Assembly (NCBI RefSeq): GCF_900187975.1
Contig: NZ_FZPC01000013.1
Coordinates: 1 to 64,000, forward strand
From: Pseudomonas delhiensis
GTDB taxonomy: Bacteria > Pseudomonadota > Gammaproteobacteria > Pseudomonadales > Pseudomonadaceae
Direction of reading: 5' to 3'
DNA length: 64,000 nucleotides
Shown here piece after piece: positions 3,784-19,323 of this stretch. Position 1 is the stretch's first letter. Every line of letters starts with the position of its first letter. A program made the position numbers and the translations under genes. The notes under the pieces were generated by a model. It was given only the letters and a program-made list of their open reading frames with translations, searched no databases and was not told the DNA's origin.

Positions 3784-5193
3784 TCAGTCCTCCACCACCC
3801 AGGTGTCCTTGGTACCGCCACCCTGTGACGAATTGACGACCAGCGAGCCTTCGCGCAGCGCCACGCGGGTCAGCCCGCCGGGCACCAGGCGCGTCTCGCG
3901 GCCGGACAGCACGAAGGGCCGCAGGTCGATGTGGCGCGGGGCGATGCCGCTGTCGACGTAGGTCGGGCAGGTCGACAGGCACAGCGTCGGCTGGGCGATG
4001 TAGGCGTGCGGGCGGGCCTTGATGCGTTCGCGGAAGGCCTCGATCTCCTGGCTGCTGGCCGCGGGGCCCACCAGCATGCCGTAGCCGCCGGAGCCCTGGG
4101 TTTCCTTGACCACCAGTTCCGGCAGGTGCGCCAGCACGTGGGACAGGTCCTGGGGCTTGCGGCACTGCCAGGTGGGTACGTTCTTCAGGATGGGTTCCTC
4201 GGACAGGTAGAAGCGCACCATGTCGCCGACGTAGGGGTAGATCGACTTGTCGTCGGCCACCCCGGTGCCGATGGCGTTGGCCAGCACCACGTTGCCGGCG
4301 CGGTAGGCCGCCAGCAGGCCGGGCACGCCGAGCATCGACTCGGGGTTGAAGGCCAGGGGGTCGAGGAAGGCGTCATCCAGGCGCCGGTAGATCACGTCCA
4401 CCGGGCGCGGGCCGGCGGTGGTGCGCATGTACACGCGCTCGTCGCGGACGAACAGGTCGGCGCCCTCCACCAGCTCCACGCCCATCTCGCGGGCCAGGAA
4501 GGCGTGCTCGAAGTAGGCGCTGTTGAAGCGCCCGGGGGTCAGCACCACCACGCTGGGGTTGTCCAGCGGGCTGGAGCTGCGCAGGGTCTCCAGCAGCAGG
4601 TTCGGGTAGTGGTCGATGGGGGCGATGCGCTGCACGGCGAACAGCTCGGGGAACAGCCGCATCATCATCTTGCGGTCCTCGAGCATGTAGCTCACGCCGC
4701 TGGGGGTGCGCAGGTTGTCCTCCAGCACGTAGTAGCTGCCGTCGGCGTCGCGCACCAGGTCGACGCCGGCGATGTGGGCGTAGAGGTCGCGGTGCAGGTC
4801 CAGGCCCTGCATGGCGATCTGGTAGCCCTCGTTGGTCAGCACCTGCTCCGCCGGGACCACCCCGGCCTTGATGATGCGCTGCTCGTGGTAGAGGTCGGCG
4901 AGGAACATGTTCAGCGCCCGCACCCGCTGGATGCAGCCGCGCTCCACCACGCGCCATTCGCTCATGGGAATGCTGCGCGGGATGGTGTCGAACGGGATCA
5001 GGCGCTCGGTGCCCTGCTCGTCGCCATAGAGGGTGAAGGTGATGCCGGCGCGGTGGAACAGCAGGTCGGCCTCGCGCCGGCGCTGCTCCAGCGTCTCCGG
5101 CGGCGCCGCCGCCAGCCAGCGGGCGAATTCGCGGTAGTGCGCCCGGCACTGGCCATTCGCGTCATACATCTCATCGTAGAAAGTGCGGGACAT
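3784..5193 (-). CDS. Circularly permuted ATP-grasp protein (DUF404/DUF407 type)
   Basis: A 469-residue putative peptide or amide ligase. The N-terminus (MSRTFYDEMYD) and the segments LEDNLRTPSGVSYMLEDR (about 160-178) and VVKETQGSGGYGML (about 380) are hallmarks of this family, in which the ATP-grasp elements are circularly permuted. The ATG at 5193 is preceded by an AGGAG-type site. Longer in-frame starts up to 5355 add a low-complexity extension that is probably not translated. It is the first gene of the Anbu operon, followed at 1 bp by the alpha-E gene. The ligated substrate is not known. Confidence 0.92.
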   Translation of the reverse strand: MSRTFYDEMYDANGQCRAHYREFARWLAAAPPETLEQRRREADLLFHRAGITFTLYGDEQGTERLIPFDTIPRSIPMSEWRVVERGCIQRVRALNMFLADLYHEQRIIKAGVVPAEQVLTNEGYQIAMQGLDLHRDLYAHIAGVDLVRDADGSYYVLEDNLRTPSGVSYMLEDRKMMMRLFPELFAVQRIAPIDHYPNLLLETLRSSSPLDNPSVVVLTPGRFNSAYFEHAFLAREMGVELVEGADLFVRDERVYMRTTAGPRPVDVIYRRLDDAFLDPLAFNPESMLGVPGLLAAYRAGNVVLANAIGTGVADDKSIYPYVGDMVRFYLSEEPILKNVPTWQCRKPQDLSHVLAHLPELVVKETQGSGGYGMLVGPAASSQEIEAFRERIKARPHAYIAQPTLCLSTCPTYVDSGIAPRHIDLRPFVLSGRETRLVPGGLTRVALREGSLVVNSSQGGGTKDTWVVED

Positions 5194-5565
5194 GCCGAAC
5201 TCCTTGTCGCCACCAGTACTCTTGCCATCGCAAGCCCCGTGCCATCGAAACAAAGCCTTTCGCTTCAACGACTTGCAAAACACGCCCTGCCCTGGCGCGC
5301 CACTTTGGTGCAGCCGGCGCGGGCAACGGGCCGGCACCGCCCCGTTTGGCGCCAACCGGGTCAGTCTAGGCCAGCGGCGGCAACCGGCCCGCCGGACTTG
5401 GGCCTATGCTTATGCCTGGACGGCGGCCGTGGGCTTGTAGCCCCCGCAGGGCGCGACTAGGCTGCCAGAGATGTCGATCTGCCATGACATGATGCTGTGC
5501 CCAGGTGCCCCGCCCGCGGTGCGGTACGGCCGCAGAGGCTCCTAACCCCTTACAGGAGTCCGACC
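5194..5565. other. Divergent intergenic region between the Anbu operon and ydcSTUV-patD
   Basis: 372 bp with no credible gene. It must hold the promoters of both outward-facing operons. For the plus-strand operon, TTGTAG (5435-5440) and TAGGCT (5458-5463) with 17-bp spacing are a weak sigma-70-like candidate. I see no clear operator. Confidence 0.4.
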
Positions 5566-6705
5566 ATGCCTTCCCCGAAATTCGCCCCCCTGGCCTTCGC
5601 CGGCGTCTGCGCCCTGGCCAGCGCCGCCTCGCAGGCCGCCCAGAGCGGCGCGCCCGAGGGCGCCCTCGACATCATCGCCTGGCCCGGCTACATCGAACGC
5701 GGCGAGAGCGACAAGAACTACGACTGGGTGACGCCCTTCGAGAAGGAGACCGGCTGCAAGGTCAACGTGAAGACCGCCGCCACCTCCGACGAGATGGTCA
5801 GCCTGATGGCCAAGGGCGGCTACGACCTGGTCACCGCCTCGGGCGATGCCTCGCTGCGCCTGGTCTACGGCAAGCGCGTGCAGCCGATCGACGTCGGCCG
5901 GATCCCCAACTGGAAGAACGTCGACCCACGCCTGCAGGACGCGCCCTGGCACACCGTCGCCGGCAAGCACTACGGCACGCCCTACCAGTGGGGCCCGAAC
6001 GTGCTGATGTACAACACCAAGGTCTTCCCCAAGGCGCCGGAAAGCTGGAGCGTGGTGTTCAAGGAACAGCAGCTGCCCGACGGCAAGAGCAACAAGGGCC
6101 GCGTGCAGGCCTACGACGGCCCCATCTACATCGCCGACGCCGCGCTCTACCTCAAGGCCACCGAACCCTCCCTGGGCATCCAGGACCCGTACCAGCTCAC
6201 CGAGGACCAGTACGCCGCGGTGCTCAAGCTGCTGCGCGCCCAGCACGCGCTGATCCACCGCTACTGGCACGACGCGACCGTGCAGATGAGCGACTTCAAG
6301 AACGAGGGCGTGGCCGCCTCCGGCTCCTGGCCCTACCAGGTCAACGCCCTGCAGGGCGAGAAGCAGCCGATCGCCTCGACCATCCCCGCCGAGGGCGTCA
6401 CCGGCTGGGCCGACACCACCATGCTGCACGTCGACGCCAAGCACCCGAACTGCGCCTACAAGTGGCTGAACTGGTCGCTGGAACCCAAGGTGCAGGGCGA
6501 CGTCGCCGCCTGGTTCGGCTCGGTGCCGGCGGTGCCGGCCGGCTGCAAGGAAAGCCAGCTGCTCGGCGCCCAGGGTTGCGCCACCAACGGCTACGACCAG
6601 TTCGAGCGCATCGCCTTCTGGAAGACGCCGCAGGCCGAGGGCGGGAAGTACGTGCCCTATAGCCGCTGGACGCAGGATTACATCGCGATCATGGGCGGCA
6701 GGTAG
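5566..6705 (+). CDS. ydcS: ABC transporter substrate-binding protein, polyamine/GABA type (YdcS-like)
   Basis: A 379-residue periplasmic solute-binding protein. Residues 1 to about 25 form a Sec signal peptide (hydrophobic LAFAGVCALASAAS, cleavage near SQA/AQ). The mature region (ALDIIAWPGYIERGESDKNY, ending in SRWTQDYIAIMGGR) matches the spermidine/putrescine-binding PotD/YdcS class. The ATG at 5566 is chosen because CAGGAG lies 8 bp before it. It is the first gene of an operon with an ATPase, two permeases and gamma-aminobutyraldehyde dehydrogenase, the same order as E. coli ydcSTUV-patD. That context points to uptake of putrescine, GABA or a related amine, but the exact ligand cannot be read from sequence. 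Confidence 0.88.
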   Translation: MPSPKFAPLAFAGVCALASAASQAAQSGAPEGALDIIAWPGYIERGESDKNYDWVTPFEKETGCKVNVKTAATSDEMVSLMAKGGYDLVTASGDASLRLVYGKRVQPIDVGRIPNWKNVDPRLQDAPWHTVAGKHYGTPYQWGPNVLMYNTKVFPKAPESWSVVFKEQQLPDGKSNKGRVQAYDGPIYIADAALYLKATEPSLGIQDPYQLTEDQYAAVLKLLRAQHALIHRYWHDATVQMSDFKNEGVAASGSWPYQVNALQGEKQPIASTIPAEGVTGWADTTMLHVDAKHPNCAYKWLNWSLEPKVQGDVAAWFGSVPAVPAGCKESQLLGAQGCATNGYDQFERIAFWKTPQAEGGKYVPYSRWTQDYIAIMGGR

Positions 6706-6717
6706 CGCTCCGGCAAC

Positions 6718-6830
6718 CGTAGGGCGAATAACCGTTCGCGGTTATCCGCCGCCTGGCCTCGGTTACCGCCCCACTCGGGTTCGACCCTGGGTGTAACGGC
6801 GTACAACCGCGAACGGTTGTACGCCCTACG
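6718..6830. repeat. Inverted pair of GTAGGGCG-type palindromic repeats
   Basis: GTAGGGCGAATAACCGTTCG (6719 on) continues into GGTTATCCGCC. Its inverted relative runs from GGCGTACAACCGCGAACGG to CGCCCTACG, ending at 6830. Each half is itself an imperfect palindrome. The pair lies between ydcS and ydcT, so it could fold into a large hairpin in the operon mRNA and lower expression of the distal genes relative to the binding protein. Confidence 0.75.
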
Positions 6831-6887
6831 TCGGGCGCTCCCCCATGCACTACCCTGTTAGAGCACACCAGCCACGCGGGTAGCGCC

Positions 6888-7907
6888 ATGACCACAGCCG
6901 TCCAGTTCACCGAGGTGAGCCGCCACTACGGCGAGGTGAAAGCCGTCGACCGGGTGTCCATCGAGATCAAGGATGGCGAGTTCTTCTCCATGCTCGGTCC
7001 CTCGGGCTCCGGCAAGACCACCTGCCTGCGGCTGATCGCCGGGTTCGAGCAACCCTCCTCCGGCTCCATCCGCATCCATGGCCAGGAAGCCGCCGGGCTG
7101 CCGCCCTACGAGCGCGACGTGAACACGGTGTTCCAGGACTACGCGCTGTTCCCCCACATGAACGTGCTGGACAACGTCGCCTATGGCCTGAAGGTCAAGG
7201 GCGTGGCCAAGGCCGAGCGCCTGAAGCGTGCCGAAGAGGCCTTGAACATGGTCGCCCTGGCCAACTACGGCAGCCGCAAGCCGGCGCAGCTGTCCGGCGG
7301 CCAGCGCCAGCGCGTGGCCCTGGCCCGCGCCCTGGTCAACCGCCCGCGCGTGCTGCTGCTGGACGAGCCCCTGGGCGCGCTGGACCTGAAGCTGCGCGAG
7401 CAGATGCAGGTGGAGCTGAAGAAGCTGCAGCGCCAGTTGGGCATCACCTTCATCTTCGTCACCCACGACCAGGGCGAGGCGCTGTCCATGTCCGACCGCG
7501 TGGCGGTGTTCAACAAGGGTCGCATCGAGCAGGTGGACACCCCGCGCAACCTCTACATGAAGCCGGCCACGCCCTTCGTCGCCGAGTTCGTCGGCACCGC
7601 CAACGTGCTGCGCGGCGACCTCGCCCGGCGCCTGCTCGGCGAGGCCGGGGCCTGGTCGCTGCGGCCGGAGCACGTGCGCTTCGGCCAGGCGCGCGAGGGC
7701 GAACTGCAGGTCGCCGGCACCCTGGTGGACGTGCAGTACCTGGGCGCCGCCAGCCGCTACGAGATCGCCCTGGACGACGGCGGCCGGCTGGTGGCCGCGC
7801 TGCCCAACGGCGAGCGCGAGGAACTGCGCCCGCAGCCCGGCGAGGCGGTCAGCGCCTGCTGGGCGCGCAGCGCGCTGGTGCCGCTGCGCGAGGAGCCGCT
7901 GCCATGA
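6888..7907 (+). CDS. ydcT: ABC transporter ATP-binding protein, polyamine type (YdcT/PotA-like)
   Basis: A 339-residue ATPase of the cytoplasmic face of the importer. Walker A GPSGSGKTT (37-45), signature LSGGQRQRVALARAL, Walker B VLLLDEP and the H-loop THDQGEAL are all intact. The C-terminal ~100 residues form a TOBE-like regulatory domain (SLRPEHVRFG). The stop overlaps the start of the first permease as ATGA, so translation is coupled. A repeat pair of about 110 bp separates it from the binding-protein gene. PotA-like ATPases often serve several polyamine systems, and here the linkage indicates a dedicated one. Confidence 0.93.
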   Translation: MTTAVQFTEVSRHYGEVKAVDRVSIEIKDGEFFSMLGPSGSGKTTCLRLIAGFEQPSSGSIRIHGQEAAGLPPYERDVNTVFQDYALFPHMNVLDNVAYGLKVKGVAKAERLKRAEEALNMVALANYGSRKPAQLSGGQRQRVALARALVNRPRVLLLDEPLGALDLKLREQMQVELKKLQRQLGITFIFVTHDQGEALSMSDRVAVFNKGRIEQVDTPRNLYMKPATPFVAEFVGTANVLRGDLARRLLGEAGAWSLRPEHVRFGQAREGELQVAGTLVDVQYLGAASRYEIALDDGGRLVAALPNGEREELRPQPGEAVSACWARSALVPLREEPLP

Positions 7908-8809
7908 TGCGCGCGGTCTCCAGCTTCCTCTACCGGCGCGGCAACCTCTACCTGCTGATGCTGCTGATCCCGCCGCTGCTGTGGTTCGGGGTAATCTACG
8001 TCGGCTCGCTGTTCGCCCTGCTGTGGCAGAGCTTCTACACCTTCGACGACTTCACCATGGCGGTGACGCCGGAGCTGACCCTGGCCAACTACAAGGCGCT
8101 GTTCAACCCGGCCAACTACGACATCGTGCTGCGCACCCTGGGCATGGCCGTGGCGGTGTCCCTGGCCAGCGCCGTGCTGGCCTTCCCCATCGCCTACTAC
8201 ATGGCGCGCTTCGCCGGGCCCAAGGAGAAGGCCTTCTTCTATATCGCGGTGATGCTGCCGATGTGGGCCAGCTACATCGTCAAGGCCTACGCCTGGACGG
8301 TGATCCTGGCCAAGGGCGGCATCCTCTACTGGATCATCGAGAAGCTGCACCTGCTGGGGCCGCTGAACCTGCTGCTGGACGTGCCCGGCGTGGGCGGCAA
8401 CACCCTGTCCACCTCGCACCTGGGGCGCTTCTGGGTGTTCACCTACATCTGGCTGCCGTTCATGATCCTGCCGATCCAGGCCGCCCTGGAGCGCCTGCCG
8501 CCGTCGCTGCTGCAGGCCAGCGCCGACCTGGGCGCGCGGCCGCGGCAGACCTTCGCCCAGGTGATACTGCCGCTGGCCTTCCCCGGCGTGGTGGCCGGCT
8601 CGATCTTCACCTTCAGCCTGACCCTGGGCGACTTCATCATCCCGCAGCTGGTCGGCCCCAGCGGGCTGTTCATCGGCACCATGGTCTACGTGCAGCAGGG
8701 CTCCATCGGCAACATGCCGCTGGCCGCGGCCTTCACCCTGGTGCCCATAGTGCTGATCGCCATCTACCTGTCCATCGCCAAGCGGCTGGGGGCCTTCGAT
8801 GCACTCTGA
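7904..8809 (+). CDS. ydcU: ABC transporter permease 1 (YdcU/PotB-like)
   Basis: A 301-residue inner-membrane permease of the MetI/PotB superfamily with about six hydrophobic helices. The first is [20 protein letters not shown] near residues 13-32. The EAA-like loop contacting the ATPase is visible as [20 protein letters not shown], about residues 203-222. The start overlaps the ATPase gene by 4 bp and the stop overlaps the next permease by 11 bp, so the three are tightly coupled. Comparable to E. coli YdcU in order and size. Confidence 0.92.
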
Positions 8810-9605
8810 GCGAGCTTCCTGGCCCCTGCGCCTGGCCGCCTGGGGCGGGCTGGTGTTCCTGCACTTCCCGATCCTGGTGATCCTGCTGTACGCCTTCAAC
8901 ACCGAGGAGTCGGCCTACAGCTTCCCGCTGCAGGGCTTCACCCTGCGCTGGTTCGCCGAGGTGGCCCAGCGCGGCGACGTGCTGGAGGCCATCTGGCTGT
9001 CGGTGAAGATCGCCTGCGTCGCCACCCTGGTGGCCATGGTGCTCGGCACGCTCGCCGCCGGCGCGCTGTACCGTCGCGACTTCTTCGGCAAGGAGGGCAT
9101 CTCGCTGATGCTGATCCTGCCCATCGCCCTGCCCGGCATCATCACCGGTATCGCCCTGCTCTCGGCGTTCAAGACCCTCGGCATCGAGCCCGGCTTCCTG
9201 ACCATCGTCATCGGCCACGCCACCTTCTGCGTGGTGATCGTCTACAACAACGTGATCGCCCGTTTCCGCCGCACCTCGTTCAGCCTGATCGAGGCCTCCA
9301 TGGACCTGGGCGCCGACGGCTGGCAGACCTTCCGCTACATCGTCCTGCCGAACATCGCCACCGCCCTGCTGGCCGGCGGCATGCTGGCCTTCGCGCTGTC
9401 CTTCGACGAGATCATCGTCACCACCTTCACCGCCGGCCACGAGCGCACCCTGCCGCTGTGGCTGCTGAACCAGCTCACCCGCCCGCGCGACGTGCCCATC
9501 ACCAACGTGGTGGCCATGCTGGTGATGCTGGCGACCATGCTGCCGATCCTCGGTGCCTACTACCTGACCCGCGGCACCAGCGACGTGGCCGGCGGCGGCA
9601 AGTGA
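8799..9605 (+). CDS. ydcV: ABC transporter permease 2 (YdcV/PotC-like)
   Basis: A 268-residue second permease subunit with about six membrane segments ([20 protein letters not shown] near the N-terminus). The EAA loop is readable as [20 protein letters not shown]. It starts within the last 11 bp of the preceding permease gene. Together with it and the ATPase it forms the membrane part of the importer. About 50 bp later the patD dehydrogenase gene begins, preceded by AGAGGAG. Confidence 0.92.
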
Positions 9606-9655
9606 ACAGGCCCCCGCCCGGCGGGGAAGCAGCCACCGAACCAGAGGAGCCCGCC

Positions 9656-11080
9656 ATGCAAAGCAAACTGCTGATCAATGGCCAGTTCGTCGCCGGCGAA
9701 GGCGAGAAGCTGGACATCCTCAACCCCTCCACCGGCGAAGTGCTGGGCCGGATAGCCGAAGCCAGCGAGGCCCAGGTGGACGCCGCCGTGCGCGCCGCCG
9801 ACGCGGCCTTCGACGGCTGGTCGCAGAGCACCCCGAAGGACCGCGCGCTGCTGTTGCTGCGCCTGGCCGACAAGATCGAGGAGCACGCCGAGGAACTGGC
9901 GCGCCTGGAATCGCAGAACTGCGGCAAGCCCTACGCCGCCGCGCTGAACGACGAGATCCCGGCCATCGCCGACGTGTTCCGCTTCTTCGCCGGCGCCTGC
10001 CGCTGCCTGCCCGGATCGGCGGCCGGCGAATACCTGCCCGGCTTCACCTCGATGATCCGCCGCGACCCGGTGGGGGTGATCGCCTCCATCGCGCCCTGGA
10101 ACTACCCGCTGATGATGGCCGCCTGGAAGCTCGGCCCGGCCCTGGCCGCCGGCAACTGCGTGGTGCTCAAGCCCTCGGAGCAGACGCCGCTGACCGCCCT
10201 GCGCCTGGCCGAGTTCATCGCCGAACTGTTCCCCGCCGGGGTGGTCAACCTGGTGTTCGGCCGCGGCCCCACGGTGGGCAGCCCGCTGGTCAGCCACGCG
10301 CTGGTGCGCATGGTCTCGCTGACCGGCTCGGTGGGCACCGGCAAGAGCATCATCCGCAGCGCCGCCGACAGCGTGAAGCGCCTGCACATGGAGCTGGGCG
10401 GCAAGGCCCCGGTGATCGTCTTCGACGACGCCGACCTGGCCGACGTGGTCGAGGGCATCCGCACCTTCGGCTTCTACAATGCCGGGCAGGACTGCACCGC
10501 GGCCTGCCGCATCTACGCCGGCAGGAAGATCTACGACAACTTCGTCGCCGACCTGGCCGGCGCCGTGTCCAGCCTCAAGACCGGCCTGCAGGACGACCCG
10601 GCCACAGAACTGGGCCCGCTGATCACCGCCAGCCAGCGCGAGCGCGTGTCCGGCTTCGTCGAACGGGCCAAGGCCAGCCCGCACATCCGCATCGCCACCG
10701 GCGGCAGCGCGGTGGCCGGCCAGGGCTTCTTCTACCAGCCGACGGTGGTGGCCAACGCCCAGCAGGACGACGAGATCGTGCGCAACGAGGTGTTCGGCCC
10801 GGTGGTCTCGGTGACCCCGTTCAGCGACGTCGAACAGGCCATCCGCTGGGCCAACGACTCCGAGTACGGCCTGGCCAGCTCGGTGTGGACCCGCGACGTG
10901 GGTCGCGCCAGCCGGGTGGCAGCGCGCCTGCAGTACGGCTGCACCTGGGTGAACACCCACTTCATGCTGTGCAGCGAGATGCCCCACGGCGGCTTCAAGC
11001 AGTCCGGCTACGGCAAGGACCTGTCGATGTACGGGCTGGAGGACTACACGGTGGCGCGGCACGTGATGATCAAGCATTGA
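9656..11080 (+). CDS. patD: Gamma-aminobutyraldehyde dehydrogenase
   Basis: A 474-residue NAD-dependent aldehyde dehydrogenase, exactly the length I know for E. coli PatD (YdcW). Close stretches are recognisable, such as [32 protein letters not shown] with the catalytic Cys, and the C-terminus [14 protein letters not shown]. It oxidises 4-aminobutanal from putrescine breakdown to GABA. The start at 9656 follows AGAGGAGCCCGCC. It is the last gene of the ydcSTUV-patD operon, which joins amine uptake to its oxidation. I recognise the sequence and position strongly, but the substrate range of the enzyme itself is inferred. Confidence 0.92.
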
Positions 11081-11085
11081 GGCCG

Positions 11086-11550
11086 GCTATCGCGGACGGA
11101 GTCCTACGCCATGCCCCGCCTGCAGGAGCGGGCCCTGCCCGCGATTCGCGCGCAAGGCGCGCTCCTGCAGGTTGAAGCTGAACTACGCATTCATGCCGGA
11201 CAGCCCCCTCTCCCGCTTGCGGGAGAGGGTTGGGGAGAGGGAACGGCGTCAATCCGCAGCACGGTGCCGCCGGTGAACGCCATTCGCGGACGAAGTCCCC
11301 TACGCCATGCCCACCTGGAGCGGGCCTTGCCCGCGAATCGCGCGCAGGGCCCGCTCCTGCAGGTTGAAGCTGAACTACGCACTCATGCCGGACAACCCCC
11401 TCTCCCGCTTGCGGGAGAGGGTTGGGGAGAGGGGACGGCGTCAATCCGCAGCACGGTGCCGCCGGTGAACGCCCTTCGCGGACGGAGTCCTACGCCATGC
11501 CCACCTGTAGGAGCGGGCCCTGCCCGCGATTCGCGCGCAAGGCGCGCGTT
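11086..11550. repeat. Tandem array of ~193-bp composite repeat units (2.4 copies)
   Basis: Units begin with CGCGGACGGAGTCC-type sequence at about 11091, 11285 and 11477 (spacing 194 and 192 bp). The third is incomplete. Each full unit holds a REP-like GAGCGGGCCCTGCCCGCG palindrome, a CAGGTTGAAGCTGAACTACGC spacer and a CCCTCTCCCGCTTGCGGGAG repeat. The array fills the convergent gap between patD and cntB and contains no credible gene. It may serve as a bidirectional transcription barrier. Confidence 0.8.
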
Positions 11551-11558
11551 TCTCGGTG

Positions 11559-12524
11559 TCAGAGGTCGATCACCAGCCGCGGCGTGCGCGAGCGGGAGAC
11601 GCAGAGCATCAGGCTCTGCTGCGAAGCCTTTTCCTCGTCGCTCAGGTACTGGTCGAAATGCTCCGCCTCGCCTTCGAGGATGGCCGTCTCGCAGGTGCCG
11701 CAGACGCCCTCGCGGCACAGGCACTCGACCTTGGCCGCCTTCACGTTCTCGATGGCCTGGAGGATGGTCATGCCCTCCTCCACCCGCAGTTCGCGGCCGG
11801 AGCGGGCCAGCACCACGGTGAAGGCGGCGCCTTCGGCCGGGGCGGCGGCGAACTGTTCCCAGTGCACGCGCTCATCGCCGATGCCGGCTGCTTTCGCGCC
11901 TGCGATCACCGCGTCGATCAGCGGCTTGGGCCCGCACACGTATACATGTGCATCCTCGGCCAGGCCGGCGAACAGCGCCTCCAGGTCGAGCTTGCGCGCC
12001 AGGCTGTCGATGTAGAAGCGCACGTGTTCGGCGTGCGGGCCCTGTTCCAGCTCGGCCTGGAAGGCGCCATGCTCCGGGCTGCGGAACGCGTAGTGCAGCT
12101 CGTAGGGCGTGGCGCCGCCTTCCAGGTCGTGCAGCTGGGCCAGGAACGGGGTGATGCCGATGCCGCCGGCGATCAGCACGTGGCGGCCGGCGCCGGGGTC
12201 CAGGGCGAACAGGTTGTTCGGGGTGGAGATGGTCAGCCGGGTGCCGACCTCCACCTGCTGGTGCATGAAGGCCGAGCCGCCCCTGGACTGCTCCTCCAGG
12301 CGCACGCCGATCTGGTAGTGGCTGAGGTCGCGCGGGTCGCTCATCAGCGAGTAGGCGTTGCTGAAACTGCCCGCCGGGTCCTGCACGATCACGTGGCTGC
12401 CGCCGCTGAAGGCCGGCATCGGCTGGCCGTCCTCGCGCACCAGGGTAAAGCGCCTGATCAGCGGCGTCGCCTGTTCCACCGCGCTGACGCGGACGCTGAA
12501 CATCTCGTATTTGTTGGCCATCAT
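11559..12524 (-). CDS. cntB: Carnitine monooxygenase reductase component (CntB-like)
   Basis: A 321-residue flavin/[2Fe-2S] reductase of the phthalate dioxygenase reductase/VanB family. Its order is an FMN-binding barrel (residues 1 to about 105), an NAD-binding domain (LIAGGIGITPFLAQL, about 116-130) and a C-terminal plant-type ferredoxin domain with C270-x4-C275-x2-C278-x29-C308. It passes electrons from NAD(P)H to the Rieske centre of CntA. Two adjacent ATGs (12524 and 12521) follow GAGGTGA and either could be used. It is the last gene of the carnitine cluster. Separation of reductase from oxygenase by a dehydrogenase gene resembles Acinetobacter carnitine clusters. A glycine-betaine-type reductase is the main alternative, but the partner oxygenase argues for CntB. 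Confidence 0.88.
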   Translation of the reverse strand: MMANKYEMFSVRVSAVEQATPLIRRFTLVREDGQPMPAFSGGSHVIVQDPAGSFSNAYSLMSDPRDLSHYQIGVRLEEQSRGGSAFMHQQVEVGTRLTISTPNNLFALDPGAGRHVLIAGGIGITPFLAQLHDLEGGATPYELHYAFRSPEHGAFQAELEQGPHAEHVRFYIDSLARKLDLEALFAGLAEDAHVYVCGPKPLIDAVIAGAKAAGIGDERVHWEQFAAAPAEGAAFTVVLARSGRELRVEEGMTILQAIENVKAAKVECLCREGVCGTCETAILEGEAEHFDQYLSDEEKASQQSLMLCVSRSRTPRLVIDL

Positions 12525-12583
12525 TCACCTCGACTGCATCGGCGCGCGGCAGGCCCTGCCGCGCGCCGGAACCCGTTGCCCGC

Positions 12584-14032
12584 TCAGACGGCGAGGCACA
12601 GGTACTTGATTTCCAGATAGTCCTCGATGCCGTACTTCGAGCCCTCGCGGCCCAGGCCGGACTGCTTCACCCCGCCGAACGGCGCCACCTCGTTGGAGAT
12701 CAGCCCGGTGTTGACGCCCACCATGCCGTACTCCAGGCGCTCGGCGACCTTGAACACGCGGCCGAGGTCGCGGCTGTAGAAGTAGGCGGCCAGGCCGTAC
12801 TGGGTGGCGTTGGCCAGCTCGATCACCTCGGCGTCGGTGGAGAAGCGCACCAGCGCCGCCACCGGGCCGAAGATTTCCTCTTCCAGCAGCGCCATGCCCG
12901 GGCGGATGCCGGCCAGCACGGTGGGCTCGAAGAAGCCGCCGCCCAGCGCGTGGCTGCGGCCGCCCAGCACCAGCTCGGCGCCCTTGCCGACGGCGTCGTC
13001 GATCAGGCTGCGCACCTTGGCCACCGCCTTGTCGCTGATCAGCGGGCCGACCTGGGTGCCCTCGGCGCTGCCATGGCCGACCTTCAGTTCGCGCACGCGT
13101 TCGACGAAGCGGGTGGCGAAGCGCTCGTACACGGCGTCGTGCACATAGAAGCGGTTGACGCACACGCAGGTCTGCCCGGCGTTGCGGTACTTGGCGACCA
13201 GCGCGCCTTCCACCGCCGCCTCGATGTCCGCGTCGTCGAAGACGATGAAGGGCGCGTTGCCACCCAGTTCCAGGGAGACCTTCTTGATGGTCTCGGCGCA
13301 CTGGCCCATCAGCAGGCGGCCCACCGGGGTCGAGCCGGTGAAGGTCAGCTTGCGCACCAGCGGGTGGCCGGTGAGCTGCGCGCCTATGGCCACGGCGTCG
13401 CCGGTGACGATGCTCAGCAGCCCGGCCGGCAGCCCGGCGCGCTCGGCCAGTTCGACCAGCGCCAGGGCGCTGAAGGGCGTCTCGTTGGCCGGCTTGAGCA
13501 CCACGCTGCAGCCGGCGGCCAGGGCCGGGGCGACCTTGCGGGTGATCATCGCCGCCGGGAAGTTCCACGGGGTGATGGCCGCGCATACGCCTATGCCCTG
13601 CTTGATCACCAGCAGGCGCTTGTCGTTGCTCGGGCTGGGGATGACGTCGCCGTAGATGCGCTTGCCTTCCTCGGCGAACCACTCGACGAAGGAGGCGGCG
13701 TAGCGGATCTCGCCCAGGGCCTCGTGCAGCGGCTTGCCCTGCTCGAAGGTCATCAGCCGGGCCAGGTCGTCCTCGTTTTCCAGCAGCAGCTCGAACCAGC
13801 GGCGCAGCACCTGGGCGCGCTCCTTGGCGGTTTTCGCGCGCCAGCCTTGCAGGGCGGCGTCGGCGGCCTCGATGGCGCGGACGGTCTCGGCGCCGCCCAT
13901 CAGCGGCACCTGGCCCAGCAGCTCGCCGGTGGCCGGGTCGGTCACCGCGACGGTGCGGCCGTCGTCGGCGTCGCACCAGGCGCCGGCGATGTAGGCCTGC
14001 TGGCGGAACAGTTTCGAATCGTTGAGTTTCAC
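12584..14032 (-). CDS. Succinate-semialdehyde-type dehydrogenase, probable malic semialdehyde dehydrogenase
   Basis: A 482-residue NAD(P)-dependent aldehyde dehydrogenase, GabD length. N157 (TPWNFPA), E255 (SLELGGNA) and the nucleophile C289 (NAGQTCVC) are present. A GTG start at 14032 is chosen: GGAGAG stands before it and the protein then begins MKLNDSKLFRQQAYIAG, as in GabD proteins. It lies between cntA and cntB. In carnitine clusters this enzyme oxidises malic semialdehyde, the four-carbon product released with trimethylamine, to malate. On sequence alone it cannot be told from succinate-semialdehyde dehydrogenase, so the substrate is inferred from position. Confidence 0.85.
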   Translation of the reverse strand: MKLNDSKLFRQQAYIAGAWCDADDGRTVAVTDPATGELLGQVPLMGGAETVRAIEAADAALQGWRAKTAKERAQVLRRWFELLLENEDDLARLMTFEQGKPLHEALGEIRYAASFVEWFAEEGKRIYGDVIPSPSNDKRLLVIKQGIGVCAAITPWNFPAAMITRKVAPALAAGCSVVLKPANETPFSALALVELAERAGLPAGLLSIVTGDAVAIGAQLTGHPLVRKLTFTGSTPVGRLLMGQCAETIKKVSLELGGNAPFIVFDDADIEAAVEGALVAKYRNAGQTCVCVNRFYVHDAVYERFATRFVERVRELKVGHGSAEGTQVGPLISDKAVAKVRSLIDDAVGKGAELVLGGRSHALGGGFFEPTVLAGIRPGMALLEEEIFGPVAALVRFSTDAEVIELANATQYGLAAYFYSRDLGRVFKVAERLEYGMVGVNTGLISNEVAPFGGVKQSGLGREGSKYGIEDYLEIKYLCLAV

Positions 14033-14084
14033 GCAAGTCTCTCCAGGCGCCGCCGCCGGCCGCACGGGCCGGCGGCGGTCGGCC

Positions 14085-15206
14085 TCAGGCGTCCAGGTGG
14101 GCGACGGCGATCAGGTTGTGGAAGTGGGCGATGCCGTGCTCGCTGATGCCGCTGCGCTGCTTGTCCACCATGATCCGGCCCTGGCCGCGGTAGCCGCGGG
14201 ACTTCAGGCCCTTCTGCACGCTTTCCACCAGGCGCAGGTCCTCGGGGCGGAACACGTCGCGGTACCACTCCACCAGCACCTTCTGCTCCTCGGTCAACTC
14301 CTTGTCGAGGAAGTAGATGTCGTAGTGCTGCAGGGTGGTCTCGGCGTCCACCGGGAACTCGTAGATCACGGTCATGAAGTTGGCGCCCGGCGGCACGTTG
14401 AACATGGTGCAGGGCCAGGCCCAGAAGCCGGCGAAGGACGGGTCGGTGACCGACTCGTCGACCTTGAACGACTGCTCCGAGGACTTGGCGATGCCGTACT
14501 GCAGCGACCAGTTGCCGTGCAGGGTGTGGCCGTACTGGCCGACGTCCACCGAGTCGGCGAAGCTGGGGTGCGCCGGGCCGCAGTGGTAGCACTCCATGTA
14601 GTTGTCGACGATGGACTTCCAGTTGGCCGGGGTGCTGGTGACGAAGCGCGCCGCCAGCTGCAGGTCGTCGATCACCGCGCAGGCCTGGCGCATGCGGGCT
14701 TCCAGGCCCGGCAACTGGTCCTCGACGCTGCCGGCGTCGTTGTCCATGTTGATGAAGATGAAGCCGGCGTACTCCTCGACGCGCAGCGGCACCAGGCCGT
14801 AGTCGCCCTTGTCGAAACCCTGCACGGCGTCGCAGTTGCGCACGTGGGTCAGCTCGCCGTCGAGCTTGAAGGTCCAGGCGTGGTACGGGCAGGCGATGAC
14901 GTTCTTGGCCTTGCCGCTGCCTTCCAGCAGCTGGTGGCCGCGGTGCGGGCAGACGTTGTAGAAGGCGCGCAGCACGCCGTCGCGGCCACGCACGACGATG
15001 ATGCTTTCGCCGATCACCTCGCGGGTGATGTAGGCGTTGTTCTCCGCCACTTCGCTGCGGTGCGCCACGCAGATCCAGCTGCGGGCGAAGATGGCTTCCT
15101 TCTCGTGCTCGTACACCGCCTTGCTGGTGTAGAAGTGCGCGGGGATGGTGAAGGCTTCTTCGTGGTTGGCGCAGAAGTCGGCTGGCAGGCGTTGGAAGTC
15201 GTTCAT
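14085..15206 (-). CDS. cntA: Carnitine monooxygenase oxygenase component (Rieske, CntA)
   Basis: A 373-residue Rieske non-haem iron oxygenase that splits L-carnitine to trimethylamine and malic semialdehyde. Rieske ligands are C86/H88 (NVCPHRGH) and C106/H109 (CPYHAW). The mononuclear iron ligands are H208, H213 and D323. The residue that bridges the two centres is E205 (YMECYHCGPAH). Glu205 in place of the usual Asp is the feature described for CntA, and with the start at 15206 the numbering coincides exactly. GGAGA lies 7 bp before that ATG. A start 24 bp upstream lacks a site. Most of the sequence is recognisably like Acinetobacter CntA. It would act with CntB, encoded downstream. Confidence 0.93.
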   Translation of the reverse strand: MNDFQRLPADFCANHEEAFTIPAHFYTSKAVYEHEKEAIFARSWICVAHRSEVAENNAYITREVIGESIIVVRGRDGVLRAFYNVCPHRGHQLLEGSGKAKNVIACPYHAWTFKLDGELTHVRNCDAVQGFDKGDYGLVPLRVEEYAGFIFINMDNDAGSVEDQLPGLEARMRQACAVIDDLQLAARFVTSTPANWKSIVDNYMECYHCGPAHPSFADSVDVGQYGHTLHGNWSLQYGIAKSSEQSFKVDESVTDPSFAGFWAWPCTMFNVPPGANFMTVIYEFPVDAETTLQHYDIYFLDKELTEEQKVLVEWYRDVFRPEDLRLVESVQKGLKSRGYRGQGRIMVDKQRSGISEHGIAHFHNLIAVAHLDA

Positions 15207-15253
15207 CGGTTGGTCTCCGGTGTCGGGCACGGGCGTAGCCGTGCTTTTTACTT

Positions 15254-15281
15254 ATTGGTTAACGGACATCTATTGGTTAAC
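15254..15281. promoter_or_regulatory. Direct repeat ATTGGTTAAC x2, probable operator of cntA
   Basis: ATTGGTTAAC occurs at 15254-15263 and 15272-15281, an 18-bp period, 48-75 bp upstream of the cntA ATG. Each copy contains the palindrome GTTAAC, which is AT-rich and unexpected in this GC-rich DNA. The same core with the same 18-bp spacing lies upstream of the BCCT gene. It is probably bound by the cluster's regulator. Which protein binds it is not shown. Confidence 0.7.
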
Positions 15282-15343
15282 AAGCCGGGCAAAAAAATTT
15301 GCCGCAAGGTGCCCGCCTCCGCTCGGGAGGCGGGCCGTATCGC

Positions 15344-16948
15344 TTACTGCGCGGGCGCCGCGGCGGCCACCGGTTGCGGCTCGGCGTGGGGCTCCTCGCC
15401 GGCCAGGCGGGTGGCCTCTTCCTCGATCAGGTGCGCCGGCATCTGGCCGTAGTCCTGCACCATCCACTTGAGGAAGCCGTAGATCTTCACCAGCAGGATC
15501 GCCATGAACGGGATGGCGGTGAGCACCACGGCCGTCTTCATGGTCGACAGCGAGGCCTTGGCGAAGAGCATGGCCAGCGGCACCAGGGTCAGGGTCACGC
15601 ACCAGAACAGCCGGTGGGTCGGCGTCGGGTCGTCGCCTTCCTGCAGGTTGCGGGTGCTGGTGGCGGCCACCGCGTAGGCCGCGGCGTCCATGTGCGAGGC
15701 GCAGAACACCGCCATGATGAACAGGTACACGGCGAGGAACGCCTTGCCCATCGGCAGGGCCGCCAGCAGCGTTTCCACCGCGCTCTCGCCGCCGTGCTCG
15801 CTGAGGATCTTCGGCACGTCGATGGCCCCGCTGATGAACTGGTGCATGCTGTAGCTTTCCAGCGCGCCGAAGAAGAACCAGCAACCGAAGCTGCCGCCCA
15901 TCAGCAGGGCGAACACCACTTCCTTGATCTGCCGGCCGCGCGACACGCAGGTCACGAACATGGCCACGCCGGGCGCGTAGGACACCCACCAGAGCCAGTA
16001 GAACACCGTCCAGTTGCGGGTGAAGGCGCCATCCCCCGCCGGGTCGGTGAACAGGCTCATGTGCACGTAGTTCTGGATCATCAGGCCGATGGAATTGGCC
16101 GTGTTGTTGATGGTGAACTGCGTCGGGCCGACCAGCAGCACCACCGCGGCGAACACCAGGGCGCCGTAGCAGACCATCTTGCTCAGGTGCTGCAGGCCGC
16201 CGTCGATGCCGATGTAGGAGCTGAGCGAGAAGAGCACGGCGATCACGCCGATCACCAGCAGCTGCACCATGAAGGTGTCGGGGGTGCCGACCAGGCCGGA
16301 CAGGCCGCGGGTGAGGGTCGAGGCGGTGAGCGCCAGGGACACGGTGAGCGCGCCCATCATGGTCAGCAGGAAGATCAGGTCCACCGCGCGGCCCACGGGG
16401 CCCGTGGCCTTGAAGCCGGTGACGGCCTCGACGATGGAGGCCAGGTTCAGGCCGCTCTTCTTGCGCACGTGGAAGTGGTAGGCCATGGCCAGCGAGGCCA
16501 GCGCGTAGATCGACCAGGCACTGATGCCCCAGTGGAAGAACGAGTAGCTGACGCTGTATTCCAGCGCCTGGGCCGACTCCGGCACCATGTTCAGGCCGGG
16601 GGTCTGGTAGTAGTAGGCCCACTCCATCACGCCCCAGTACAGGGTCGAGGAGCCCATGCCGGCGCAGATGAACATGAACACCCAGGTGGCGGTGGAGTAT
16701 TCCGGCTTGCCGCTCCCCAGGCGGATGTTGCCGTACTTGCTGAAGGCCAGGTACAGCACCACCAGGGAACTGCCGAACACCAGCAGCTGCACGCTGGTGC
16801 CGAAGGTACGGGTGGAGAGTTCGAACAGGGTGTTGGCCAGTTGCCCGGACTGTTCCGGGAAGGCGGCCAGGCCGACCACGGTGAGCAGCACGGCGACAAG
16901 GCTTACGGTTATCAGGAACACATCAATCTTTTTGTTCTTGTGCGACAT
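15344..16948 (-). CDS. BCCT-family transporter, probable carnitine/betaine uptake
   Basis: A 534-residue inner-membrane transporter with about twelve hydrophobic segments. The signature region ([20 protein letters not shown], residues about 95-114) and [18 protein letters not shown] match the betaine/carnitine/choline family and resemble CaiT and related carnitine carriers. The hydrophilic C-terminus is Ala/Pro/Glu-rich. The ATG at 16948 follows AGGAGT. The gene lies directly upstream of cntA with the same orientation and has its own GTTAAC-bearing promoter region. In this setting it most likely imports carnitine for CntAB. Choline or glycine betaine remain possible. Confidence 0.88.
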
Positions 16949-17053
16949 CAATCGACTCCTGGAGCTATGGAAGTCTCCCCGCCCGCGGGTAGGCAAATCC
17001 CGTCTGTGGGGTGGGAAGGGTTATTTCGTTCGGCTGGGCTCGCTCTCCTTTCT

Positions 17054-17088
17054 GTTAACCTTAAGTTAACTAAAATCCAATGGTTAAC
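17054..17088. promoter_or_regulatory. Three GTTAAC motifs upstream of the BCCT gene
   Basis: GTTAAC occurs at 17054-17059, 17065-17070 and 17083-17088. The last two are 18 bp apart, the same spacing as the pair before cntA. They lie about 105-140 bp upstream of the transporter ATG. This shared arrangement suggests that one regulator controls both transcription units. Confidence 0.65.
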
Positions 17089-17187
17089 AGTTTGCCTGTA
17101 ACTCCTCTTGCCTGCAAGCCTGAGGCGCAGGTCTCACGCGGCTTTCCGGATGATCGGCGGCCCGCGTCCCGGGCCGCCAGGGCGCAC

Positions 17188-18273
17188 TCAGCCGGCGACG
17201 CGCGCGGCGATGGCCTCGCCCACTTCCCGGGTGGAGCGTTGGCCGCCCATGTCGCGGGTCACCTCGCCCGCGGCGATGACCTGCTCGATGGCCGCGAGGA
17301 TGTCGTCGTGGGCGGCGCGGTAGCGCGCGTCGCCCTGGCCGAGGAAGTCCAGCATCAGCGCGCCGGACCAGATCATGGCGATGGGGTTGGCGATGTTCTG
17401 GCCGTAGATGTCCGGCGCCGAGCCGTGCACCGGCTCGAACAGCGAGGGGAACTTGCGCTCCGGGTTGAGGTTGGCCGAGGGCGCGATGCCGATGGTGCCG
17501 GCGCAGGCCGGGCCGAGGTCGGAGAGGATGTCGCCGAACAGGTTGGAGGCCACCACCACGTCGAAGCGCTCCGGCTGCAGCACGAAGCGCGCGCAGAGGA
17601 TGTCGATGTGCTGCTTGTCCCAGGTGATGTCCGGGTACCCGGCAGCCATGGCCGCGGTGCGCTCGTCCCAGTAGGGCATGCTCACGGCCATGCCGTTGGA
17701 CTTGGTGGCCGAGGTCAGGCGCTTGCGCTCGCGGGTCTGGGCCAGGTCGAAGGCGTACTTGAGGATGCGGTCGACGCCGCGGCGGGTGAACACCGACTCC
17801 TGCAGCACGAACTCGTTCTCGGTGCCCTCGAACATGCGCCCGCCCAGGGAGGAATACTCGCCCTCGGTGTTCTCGCGGATCACCACGAAATCGATGTCGC
17901 CGGGCTGCTTGTTGGCCAGCGGGCACGGCACGCCGGGGAACAGGCGCACCGGGCGGATGTTCACGTACTGGTCGAACTCGCGGCGGAACTTCAGCAGCGA
18001 GCCCCACAGGGAGATGTGGTCCGGCACCTTGTCCGGCCAGCCGACGGCGCCGAAGTACAGGGCGTCGAAGCCCTTGAGCTGCTCGAACCAGTCGTCGGGC
18101 ATCATCTTGCCGTGCTGCAGGTAGTAGTCGCAGCTGGCCCACTCGAAGTGCTCGAACTCCAGCGCCAGGCCGTGCCTGGCCGCGGCCGCCTGGACGACGC
18201 GCAGGCCTTCGGGAAGGACTTCGTTGCCGATGCCGTCGCCGGCGATGGCGGCGATGCGATAGGTCTTGCTCAT
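17188..18273 (-). CDS. Tartrate/D-malate dehydrogenase (decarboxylating), TtuC/DmlA type
   Basis: A 361-residue enzyme of the isocitrate/isopropylmalate dehydrogenase family. The start MSKTYRIAAIAGDGIGNEVL is typical of TtuC. NPIAMIWSGALML and the metal-binding NLFGDILSDLGPACAG are clear. It converts D-malate to pyruvate and CO2 with NAD, and family members also oxidise tartrate. In the carnitine cluster it would finish the route from malic semialdehyde through malate to pyruvate. The start at 18273 has only a weak AGAGTG site. A LysR gene is divergent, as for E. coli dmlA-dmlR. A GC-rich hairpin (17156-17178) follows the stop but lacks a U-tract, so readthrough toward the BCCT gene is possible. 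Confidence 0.9.
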   Translation of the reverse strand: MSKTYRIAAIAGDGIGNEVLPEGLRVVQAAAARHGLALEFEHFEWASCDYYLQHGKMMPDDWFEQLKGFDALYFGAVGWPDKVPDHISLWGSLLKFRREFDQYVNIRPVRLFPGVPCPLANKQPGDIDFVVIRENTEGEYSSLGGRMFEGTENEFVLQESVFTRRGVDRILKYAFDLAQTRERKRLTSATKSNGMAVSMPYWDERTAAMAAGYPDITWDKQHIDILCARFVLQPERFDVVVASNLFGDILSDLGPACAGTIGIAPSANLNPERKFPSLFEPVHGSAPDIYGQNIANPIAMIWSGALMLDFLGQGDARYRAAHDDILAAIEQVIAAGEVTRDMGGQRSTREVGEAIAARVAG

Positions 18274-18288
18274 GCTGGGCACACTCTT

Positions 18289-18319
18289 GTTGGTATCAGG
18301 GCTGGTTGGTATCAGGGCT
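18289..18319. promoter_or_regulatory. Tandem repeat GTTGGTATCAGGGCT x2 in the ttuC/lysR divergent promoter
   Basis: Two perfect 15-bp copies at 18289-18303 and 18305-18319 (16-bp period), directly upstream of the dehydrogenase start on the minus strand. It could be a binding site or a small recent duplication. No GTTAAC core is present here. Confidence 0.5.
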
Positions 18320-18408
18320 TGTTGGGTGTAGGGAAAGCGTGCCGCCCATGCTATAAGCGCCAATCGAAAACATAATCCCGCCATCCATGGATTCTTAAGA
18401 CACGAATC

Positions 18409-19323
18409 GTGAACAATCTGCCGAACCTGGAAGACCTCGCCGTCTTCGTCCAGGTCGCCCGGCGCGCGAGCTTCGCCGCCGCCGCCGGCGAGCTGGGCAT
18501 GTCCACCGCCTTCATCAGCAAGCGCATCCGCCTGCTGGAGCAGAACCTCGGCGTACGCCTGCTGCACCGCACCACCCGGCGGGTGTCGGTGAGCGAGGAC
18601 GGCGAACGCGTCTACCACTGGGCGCTGCGCATCCTCGACTCGGTGCAGCGCATGGGCGACGAGGTCTCGGCGCTGCACCGCGAGCCCAGCGGCCAGCTGC
18701 GCATCGCCAGCAGCCTGGGCCTGGGCCGGCGCTTCGTCGCCCCGGCGCTGTCGGAACTGGCGGCGCGCTACCCGCAGCTGGACATCCGCCTGGACGTCCA
18801 CGACCGTCTGGTGGACCTGCTGGCCGAGGGCGTGGACCTGGACATCCGCGTGGGCAACGAGATCGCCGCCAACCTCATCGCCAAGCCCCTGGCGCGCAAC
18901 CGCCGGGTGCTCTGCGCGGCCCCGGAATACCTGGAAAGACGCGGCACGCCGCGCAGCCTGGCCGAGCTGACCAGCCACGACTGCCTGGTGATCAAGGAGC
19001 GCGACCACCCCTTCGGCATCTGGCACCTGGAAGGCCCGGACGGCGAGGAAAGCGTGAAGGTCACCGGTCCGCTGTCGTCCAACCACGGCGAGGTGGTGCA
19101 CCAGTGGTGCCTGGACGGCCGCGGCGTGCTGCTGCGCTCCTGGTGGGACGTGCACGACAGCCTGGCCGACGGGCGCCTGGTGCAGGTGCTGCCGGAGTAC
19201 CAGCAGGCGGCGGACATCTGGGCGGTGCACGCCTCGCCCCTGGCCAGCTCGGCCAAGGTGCGGGTGGCGGTGGAGTTCTTCCGCCAGTACTTCGCCGAGC
19301 GCTACACGCTGCCGGAGGGCTGA
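18409..19323 (+). CDS. LysR-family transcriptional regulator (DmlR-like), divergent from the malate dehydrogenase gene
   Basis: A 304-residue LTTR. The N-terminal winged helix-turn-helix (residues about 6-65, FAAAAGELGMSTAFISKRIR) is followed by a LysR substrate-binding domain. It opens with GTG at 18409 and I see no good ribosome binding site, so the start is tentative. It faces away from the tartrate/D-malate dehydrogenase gene, as DmlR does in E. coli. It is also the only regulator gene touching the carnitine cluster, so it may control the whole set in response to malate or carnitine. Which ligand applies cannot be read from sequence. Confidence 0.88.
   Translation: MNNLPNLEDLAVFVQVARRASFAAAAGELGMSTAFISKRIRLLEQNLGVRLLHRTTRRVSVSEDGERVYHWALRILDSVQRMGDEVSALHREPSGQLRIASSLGLGRRFVAPALSELAARYPQLDIRLDVHDRLVDLLAEGVDLDIRVGNEIAANLIAKPLARNRRVLCAAPEYLERRGTPRSLAELTSHDCLVIKERDHPFGIWHLEGPDGEESVKVTGPLSSNHGEVVHQWCLDGRGVLLRSWWDVHDSLADGRLVQVLPEYQQAADIWAVHASPLASSAKVRVAVEFFRQYFAERYTLPEG

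Follow-up and report, generated by a model that had tools for sequence, protein, structure and literature searches.

A probable CarR-type carnitine degradation operon in Pseudomonas delhiensis, in a genome that also encodes a carnitine dehydrogenase operon and a predicted trimethylamine-consuming route

Results

A six-gene cluster with a widely shared gene order

The stretch of DNA analyzed here (referred to as the window) comprises the first 64,000 nucleotides of contig NZ_FZPC01000013.1 of Pseudomonas delhiensis (assembly GCF_900187975.1; genome searched, 6.73 Mb in 81 contigs). At 11559-19323 it carries the genes for a two-component carnitine monooxygenase, a semialdehyde dehydrogenase, a transporter, a malate dehydrogenase, and a divergent regulator (together, the cnt operon), which very probably form an inducible operon for L-carnitine degradation, of the same CarR type as in Acinetobacter. 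The genes and the grounds for naming them are as follows.

11559-12524, minus strand: cntB, carnitine monooxygenase reductase, 321 amino acids; Fer2 and NAD_binding_1 domains and place in the conserved order
12584-14032, minus strand: msadh, malic semialdehyde dehydrogenase (MSA-DH), 482 amino acids; Aldedh domain, tree placement, and residues
14085-15206, minus strand: cntA, Rieske oxygenase of carnitine monooxygenase, 373 amino acids; Rieske and Ring_hydroxyl_A domains, structure 6y8j, and residues
15344-16948, minus strand: bcct, betaine/carnitine/choline family transporter (BCCT), 534 amino acids; NF007412 and conserved order
17188-18273, minus strand: mdh, probable beta-decarboxylating D-malate dehydrogenase (MDH) of the tartrate dehydrogenase/DmlA family, 361 amino acids; TIGR02089
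18409-19323, plus strand: lysR, divergent regulator, CarR/DmlR orthologue, 304 amino acids; LysR domains and tree

All six frames are free of internal stops, and the genes are intact. The minus-strand genes, from cntB to mdh, are separated by 59, 52, 137, and 239 bases, and 135 bases lie between mdh and lysR. Curated models were exceeded by the msadh product (TIGR01780, succinic semialdehyde dehydrogenase; 709 bits against a cut-off of 646), by BCCT (905 against 647), and by MDH, which at 571 bits against 470 belongs to the tartrate dehydrogenase/DmlA family and also matches structure 3flk (E 9.1e-211). The closest solved chain to CntA was carnitine monooxygenase 6y8j (E 3.6e-201); the model for the glycine betaine monooxygenase GbcA (NF058607) was missed, at 168.8 bits against 670.

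We fetched loci by CntA similarity, taking the best 80 of at least 584 confirmed matches, and mapped gene order from matches over half the query length (in the map of genus genomes, also at ≥55% identity). The order lysR / mdh-bcct-cntA-msadh-cntB, with lysR divergent, as in the window, was present in 51 of the 80 loci in several genera, including all 20 Acinetobacter loci, a recurrence far beyond chance. Eleven others kept this order but lacked msadh (nine bear Pseudomonas titles, one Pantoea, and one Aquitalea), and 18 had other, partial, or cut-off arrangements. The intact frames, family matches, and conserved order thus bear out the six-gene carnitine cluster proposed by a first-pass annotation of this DNA. 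Five Pseudomonas loci (L119, from genome G004, and L011, L012, L014, and L015) have cntA-cntB without msadh between them, four of them with bcct; L015 has its mdh and lysR on the other side.

The A. baumannii operon is carR-mdh-bcct-hyd-cntA-msadh-cntB (PMC11353897), and the window shares with it the order and orientation of the six common genes and all of the active-site residues that were checked. Identity to the A. nosocomialis copy (L067) is 74% for CntA, 73% for MDH, 61% for MSA-DH, 59% for BCCT, 57% for CntB, and 46% for LysR. The E. coli cluster dmlR-dmlA-yeaV-yeaW-yeaX also has the same order (CntA, 73%; MDH, 80%; BCCT, 63%; LysR, 65%; best CntB segment, 57%, to YeaX as to Acinetobacter CntB) but, unlike the window, lacks malic semialdehyde dehydrogenase; the record of E. 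coli strain 405 marks yeaX as carrying a frameshift (L168, 6100-7064). The CAR module of Psychrobacter plasmid pP32BP2, which was shown to release trimethylamine (TMA) (PMC6514802), matches the window in its five genes, their order, and the divergent LysR. CntA in Pseudomonas is already in print as a protein of Pseudomonas sp. TDA1 with 73.8% similarity to A. baumannii CntA (PMC7118221), and the cnt operon is an ordinary member of an already characterized kind.

Active-site residues of CntA and its Rieske paralogues

Residue numbers for CntA were set on the A. nosocomialis sequence, where they agree with the published positions, and then projected onto the window protein; residue roles were taken from PMC7948474 and PMC10952381. 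All 14 published residues are kept. The iron ligands His208, His213, and Asp323 and the bridging Glu205 are present at the same numbers, as the first-pass annotation had read them, together with the Cys206/Cys209 pair, Tyr203, Phe216, Tyr225, Phe258, Asn270, Tyr295, Tyr315, and Phe319. Residue tables were built from rows longer than 85% of the query, giving 110 rows for CntA with duplicate loci, the reference, and the window included. In the 106 close rows all 14 residues are conserved, apart from a change of Phe258 to Tyr in two, and Glu205 is conserved in all 110 rows. The four distant rows represent two proteins of this same genome, each entered twice (L004/L095 and L006/L097), and both retain Glu205 and the iron ligands. 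Because these distant Rieske paralogues also have it, Glu205 alone does not single out CntA, and the diagnostic value that had been ascribed to this residue needs qualification. The pocket differs from that of CntA at 5 of 8 residues in L004/L095, which keeps the cysteine pair, and at 6 of 8 in L006/L097, from which the pair is absent. Eight further Rieske places occur in the genome, of which two were long enough for alignment.

The L095 oxygenase, which is GbcA-like, lies in a second cluster (positions 4999-12468; G000:C47) with a BKACE enzyme, a thioesterase, an aldehyde dehydrogenase, and a carnitine-dehydrogenase-like enzyme that scores 275 bits, below the cut-off of 414; this cluster is perhaps devoted to the catabolism of another quaternary amine. 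The L097 oxygenase (6185-10153; G000:C29), of 384 amino acids, stands beside a GMC oxidoreductase and an AraC-type regulator.

Malic semialdehyde dehydrogenase is separable from GabD-like enzymes

The window semialdehyde dehydrogenase is 68 to 69% identical to two GabD-like paralogues of the same genome and 63% identical to a third, compared with 61% for Acinetobacter MSA-DH, and by identity alone it could be mistaken for GabD. We therefore rely on a tree and on individual residues, using matches that span more than 440 residues without a stop. In the tree (rooted at the midpoint for display only; L005, which duplicates the window's row, omitted), 65 cnt-linked rows, Acinetobacter included, are split from 14 GabD-like paralogues by a branch with support of 100/98. 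The window residues R165, N183, E255, R283, C289, and S446 correspond to published R166, N184, E256, R284, C290, and S447, which comprise the catalytic Cys and Glu, the substrate Arg, Arg, and Ser, and the cofactor Asn184. This asparagine, a cofactor residue in A. baumannii MSA-DH (PMC11353897), is invariant in the 78 cnt-linked rows (67 different sequences, counting the window and the reference), whereas the 14 GabD-like paralogues have Ser (9 rows) or Glu (5 rows) at position 184; the passages of PMC11353897 consulted do not mention this contrast. The tree and Asn184 together led us to reject a GabD paralogue as the identity of the window enzyme.

In Klebsiella pneumoniae CP125156.1 (L169, 7340-8884), an msadh match lies between cntA and cntB, and its best segment starts only at query residue 146, which kept the locus out of the MSA-DH rows. 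The PLSDB table lists no gene there, which reflects either a broken gene or a gap in the table.

The regulator and a candidate operator

In a quick tree of LysR proteins from 27 chosen loci and five distant outgroups, the window LysR and 27 other cnt-linked LysR proteins, Acinetobacter CarR and E. coli DmlR among them, fell on one side of a branch (Shimodaira-Hasegawa-like approximate likelihood ratio test, 96). This placement suggests that the window LysR is a CarR/DmlR orthologue, and by analogy with CarR, which in A. baumannii binds the carR-operon region when carnitine is present (PMC11353897), it would switch on the operon in response to carnitine. When 46 distinct intergenic regions, mostly from Pseudomonas, were aligned, the lysR-mdh gap showed a conserved block, GATTAT followed by CTTATAGCATGG, which is a candidate CarR operator/promoter.

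18346-18377, minus strand: candidate CarR operator/promoter block in the lysR-mdh gap, GATTAT ... CTTATAGCATGG; intergenic alignment, with a purely predicted function

A carnitine dehydrogenase operon in the same genome

The first-pass annotation stated that P. aeruginosa degrades carnitine by a dehydrogenase route and suggested that the CntA route exists here in addition to it or in its place. The P. aeruginosa gene set and order is caiX-cdhCAB-hocS (PMC5806209), and a genome-wide search recovered an operon of the same order on another contig (L094), with a GbdR-like regulator in the cdhR position divergent from caiX, cdhC (BKACE), cdhA, cdhB, and an alpha/beta hydrolase in the hocS position. 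CdhA scored 652 bits against a cut-off of 414 for NF005471; the name cdhR rests on position, because similarity to GbdR (334 bits) is below the cut-off of 480. The cnt route is thus present in addition to, and not in place of, the cdh operon. In P. aeruginosa the cdh operon serves the same growth substrate as cnt by unlike chemistry, leading to glycine betaine without C-N cleavage to TMA. Among 25 genomes of the genus, CntA is present in 15 and CdhA in 23; 13 have both, 10 have CdhA only, 2 (G003 and G013) have CntA only, and none has neither. With both in 13 of 25 genomes, a view of CntA and CdhA as mutually exclusive routes is unsupported.

Predicted genes for trimethylamine consumption

A further contig (C51, approximately 18.8 to 43.9 kb) carries a TMA monooxygenase (Tmm; 836.6 bits against 675), a trimethylamine N-oxide demethylase (Tdm; 1156.9 against 1100), a DmmA-family protein (score of 110 against a cut-off of 60), a DmmB-like reductase, a HODM subunit, a GcvT-like protein, and PurU. 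The same contig has a type III glutamine synthetase (673.8 against 469.6) with three genes with glutamate-synthase-like domains alongside, as well as a four-gene sarcosine-oxidase-like set with PurU and FolD. Library labels are silent on this glutamine-synthetase/sarcosine-oxidase-like part, which we take, from its gene pattern, to be a probable gamma-glutamylmethylamide/N-methylglutamate pathway. Judged by these genes, the genome probably encodes a complete-looking route from TMA to ammonia, made up of Tmm, Tdm, dimethylamine monooxygenase subunits, and a methylamine pathway, and because of this route TMA may be an intermediate. The earlier description of the cluster as a TMA-producing path therefore holds, by orthology, for the formation of TMA from carnitine and needs qualification as regards TMA being the product. 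The host thus carries, besides the cnt operon, both the cdh operon and a probable TMA-degrading locus. A second DmmA-family/DmmB-like/HODM set lies beside an amino-acid-type permease (L099, 6845-11079; G000:C66), and no GcvT-like gene was seen beside it.

The Psychrobacter CAR module is plasmid-borne, and its host has a tmm-like gene, has no tdm, and is inhibited by TMA; the TMA released stops growth, and a TMA-using pathway has been proposed as necessary for the module to be of benefit (PMC6514802). Unlike that host, the genome studied here matches both tmm and tdm and would have such a TMA-using pathway. Across 198 genomes of the family, taken as the same sample for both proteins, CntA was found in 28 and TMA monooxygenase in 53, with both in 7, compared with 7.5 expected (odds ratio, 0.90; Fisher p = 1, kinship ignored). 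In the genus, TMA monooxygenase occurs in 3 of the 15 genomes with CntA and in 1 of the 10 without. Given the lack of association in the family sample, a coupling of CntA to TMA use as a rule is unsupported.

Probable inheritance of the cnt genes within the genus

The same gene adjoins cntB in 13 of the 14 other genus genomes with CntA, and in the fourteenth (G001) a contig edge falls at that point. A second common gene occupies the other flank in 10 of the 14. In nine of these it is next to lysR; in G004, for which cntA and cntB were the only cnt genes found, it adjoins cntA. The distance from cnt to ung is approximately 70 to 91 kb in seven genomes that have the two on one contig (G003, G005, G013, G018, G020, G022, and G024) and some 750 kb in G004, and lysR directly adjoins ung in the window and in G001. 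The window is without the cntB-side neighbor common to the genus; G002, the next nearest genome, keeps it, and its cnt contig stops a short way past lysR, both contigs ending at the lysR-ung junction. Of the relatives with a name among the CntA matches listed, the nearest is Pseudomonas citronellolis LMG 18378 (98% identity in CntA), which has the same cluster (L009). Outside the genus, CntA was found in 13 of 173 other genomes of the family sample.

Because 13 of the 14 other carriers share the gene beside cntB, inheritance within the genus with losses fits these data. A recent gain of CntA by this organism was rejected as the best reading on the same evidence, and the suggestion that it had acquired a TMA path was not upheld, as 15 of the 25 genomes of the genus have CntA. 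The genus may, however, have gained it earlier. Most likely, the genes were inherited within the genus, were lost from some of the 10 genomes that have no CntA, and underwent a rearrangement in the P. citronellolis group that brought lysR to ung. The other side of the operon carries repeats:

11115-11547, no strand assigned: repetitive extragenic palindromic (REP)-like repeats beside cntB, two 174-nucleotide direct-repeat copies with palindromic units; repeat search

The lysR-ung interval of P. citronellolis LMG 18378 has relatives of these repeats (76 to 77%). Those beside cntB are a possible edge of a rearrangement, and such repeats may have mediated the joining of lysR to ung. Convergent to the cnt operon, at 5566-11080, the window has apparent ABC transporter genes, as judged from translations, and then an aminobutyraldehyde dehydrogenase gene (825 bits with a subfamily model whose cut-off is 615); the cntB neighbor in G002 differs from this side of the window.

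Discussion

Gene identity and order can be read directly from the locus, and the reactions and induction are carried over by orthology from the A. baumannii pathway, whose enzymes convert L-carnitine to TMA and malic semialdehyde, then to D-malate, and then to pyruvate and CO2, and whose gene set lets E. coli grow on carnitine (PMC11353897). In P. delhiensis, the BCCT protein would import carnitine, and CntB would hand electrons from NADH to CntA, whose Rieske center and mononuclear iron would oxidize carnitine at the C-N bond to TMA and malic semialdehyde. MSA-DH would then form D-malate, which MDH would decarboxylate to pyruvate, and the divergent LysR would activate the operon on carnitine or on D-malate. 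The TMA would probably be taken on to formaldehyde and ammonia by the methylamine locus on the other contig. The first-pass annotation had the neighboring enzymes completing a path from carnitine to TMA plus pyruvate, and orthology with the reconstituted pathway supports this, by way of D-malate.

Several observations weigh against this interpretation. None of CntA, CntB, and LysR reaches a curated NCBIfam cut-off, and the sarcosine-oxidase-like genes of the TMA locus are below theirs. Unlike the A. baumannii operon, the window has no hyd between bcct and cntA, only the 137-base gap; because the E. coli cluster is also without hyd (PMC11353897), we treat this gene as not defining for a CarR-type operon. 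The sequence does not fix the natural substrate, because A. baumannii CntA also oxidizes gamma-butyrobetaine and was crystallized with it (PMC7948474), and one could imagine a cluster serving mainly this or another quaternary amine, with carnitine as a side substrate. We consider this highly unlikely: gamma-butyrobetaine would be expected to give succinic semialdehyde, for which the genome has separate GabD-like enzymes, whereas the dehydrogenase of the cluster groups with MSA-DH, and the operon also includes a D-malate dehydrogenase-like gene. The inducer is likewise uncertain between carnitine and D-malate, because LysR is closer to DmlR than to CarR.

The E. coli DmlR responds to D-malate, and both LysR and MDH of the window are nearer to E. 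coli DmlR and DmlA (65 and 80%) than to Acinetobacter CarR and MDH (46 and 73%). Furthermore, 11 of the 80 loci (L011, L012, L014, L043, L046, L049, L050, L054, L058, L062, and L064) have bcct-cntA-cntB, with or without msadh, and no mdh match in the fetched flank. The dmlR-dmlA half might therefore be a D-malate/tartrate utilization pair carrying the carnitine genes as a passenger module, with a regulator that answers D-malate and not carnitine. We rate this as unlikely, given that all six genes occur together in 51 of 80 loci, that the CarR and DmlR rows lie on the same side of the branch, and that A. baumannii requires mdh for growth on carnitine (PMC11353897). It also seems quite unlikely that the cnt operon is silent or only limits carnitine levels while the cdh operon alone catabolizes carnitine. 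Such an arrangement would agree with the presence of the cdh operon, with the missing CntA match in 10 of 25 genus genomes, and with the carnitine-limiting role that PMC11353897 suggests for clusters without msadh and/or mdh, but the window cluster has both of these genes with intact frames. In addition, CntA is present in G003 and G013, neither of which gave a CdhA match at E ≤ 1e-80, and the CntA route therefore appears able to stand alone.

The genome as a whole points further, tentatively and at a little under an even chance, to a P. citronellolis group with two parallel carnitine routes, in which CntAB-derived TMA would be taken fully to ammonia and one-carbon units by Tmm, Tdm, dimethylamine monooxygenase, and the gamma-glutamylmethylamide/N-methylglutamate pathway. 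Should this be true, a CntA-positive organism can be a net consumer of TMA.

The MSA-DH clade and Asn184 offer a practical sequence test that separates malic semialdehyde dehydrogenase from the GabD enzymes that resemble it, a distinction relevant to whether carbon from carnitine can enter metabolism by way of a cntA cluster. CntA genes are taken to mark the conversion of carnitine to TMA, and PMC11353897 warns that gene context must be weighed. The P. delhiensis genome adds a reason for doing so, as the same cell has a TMA-avoiding route and a complete-looking TMA-consuming route.

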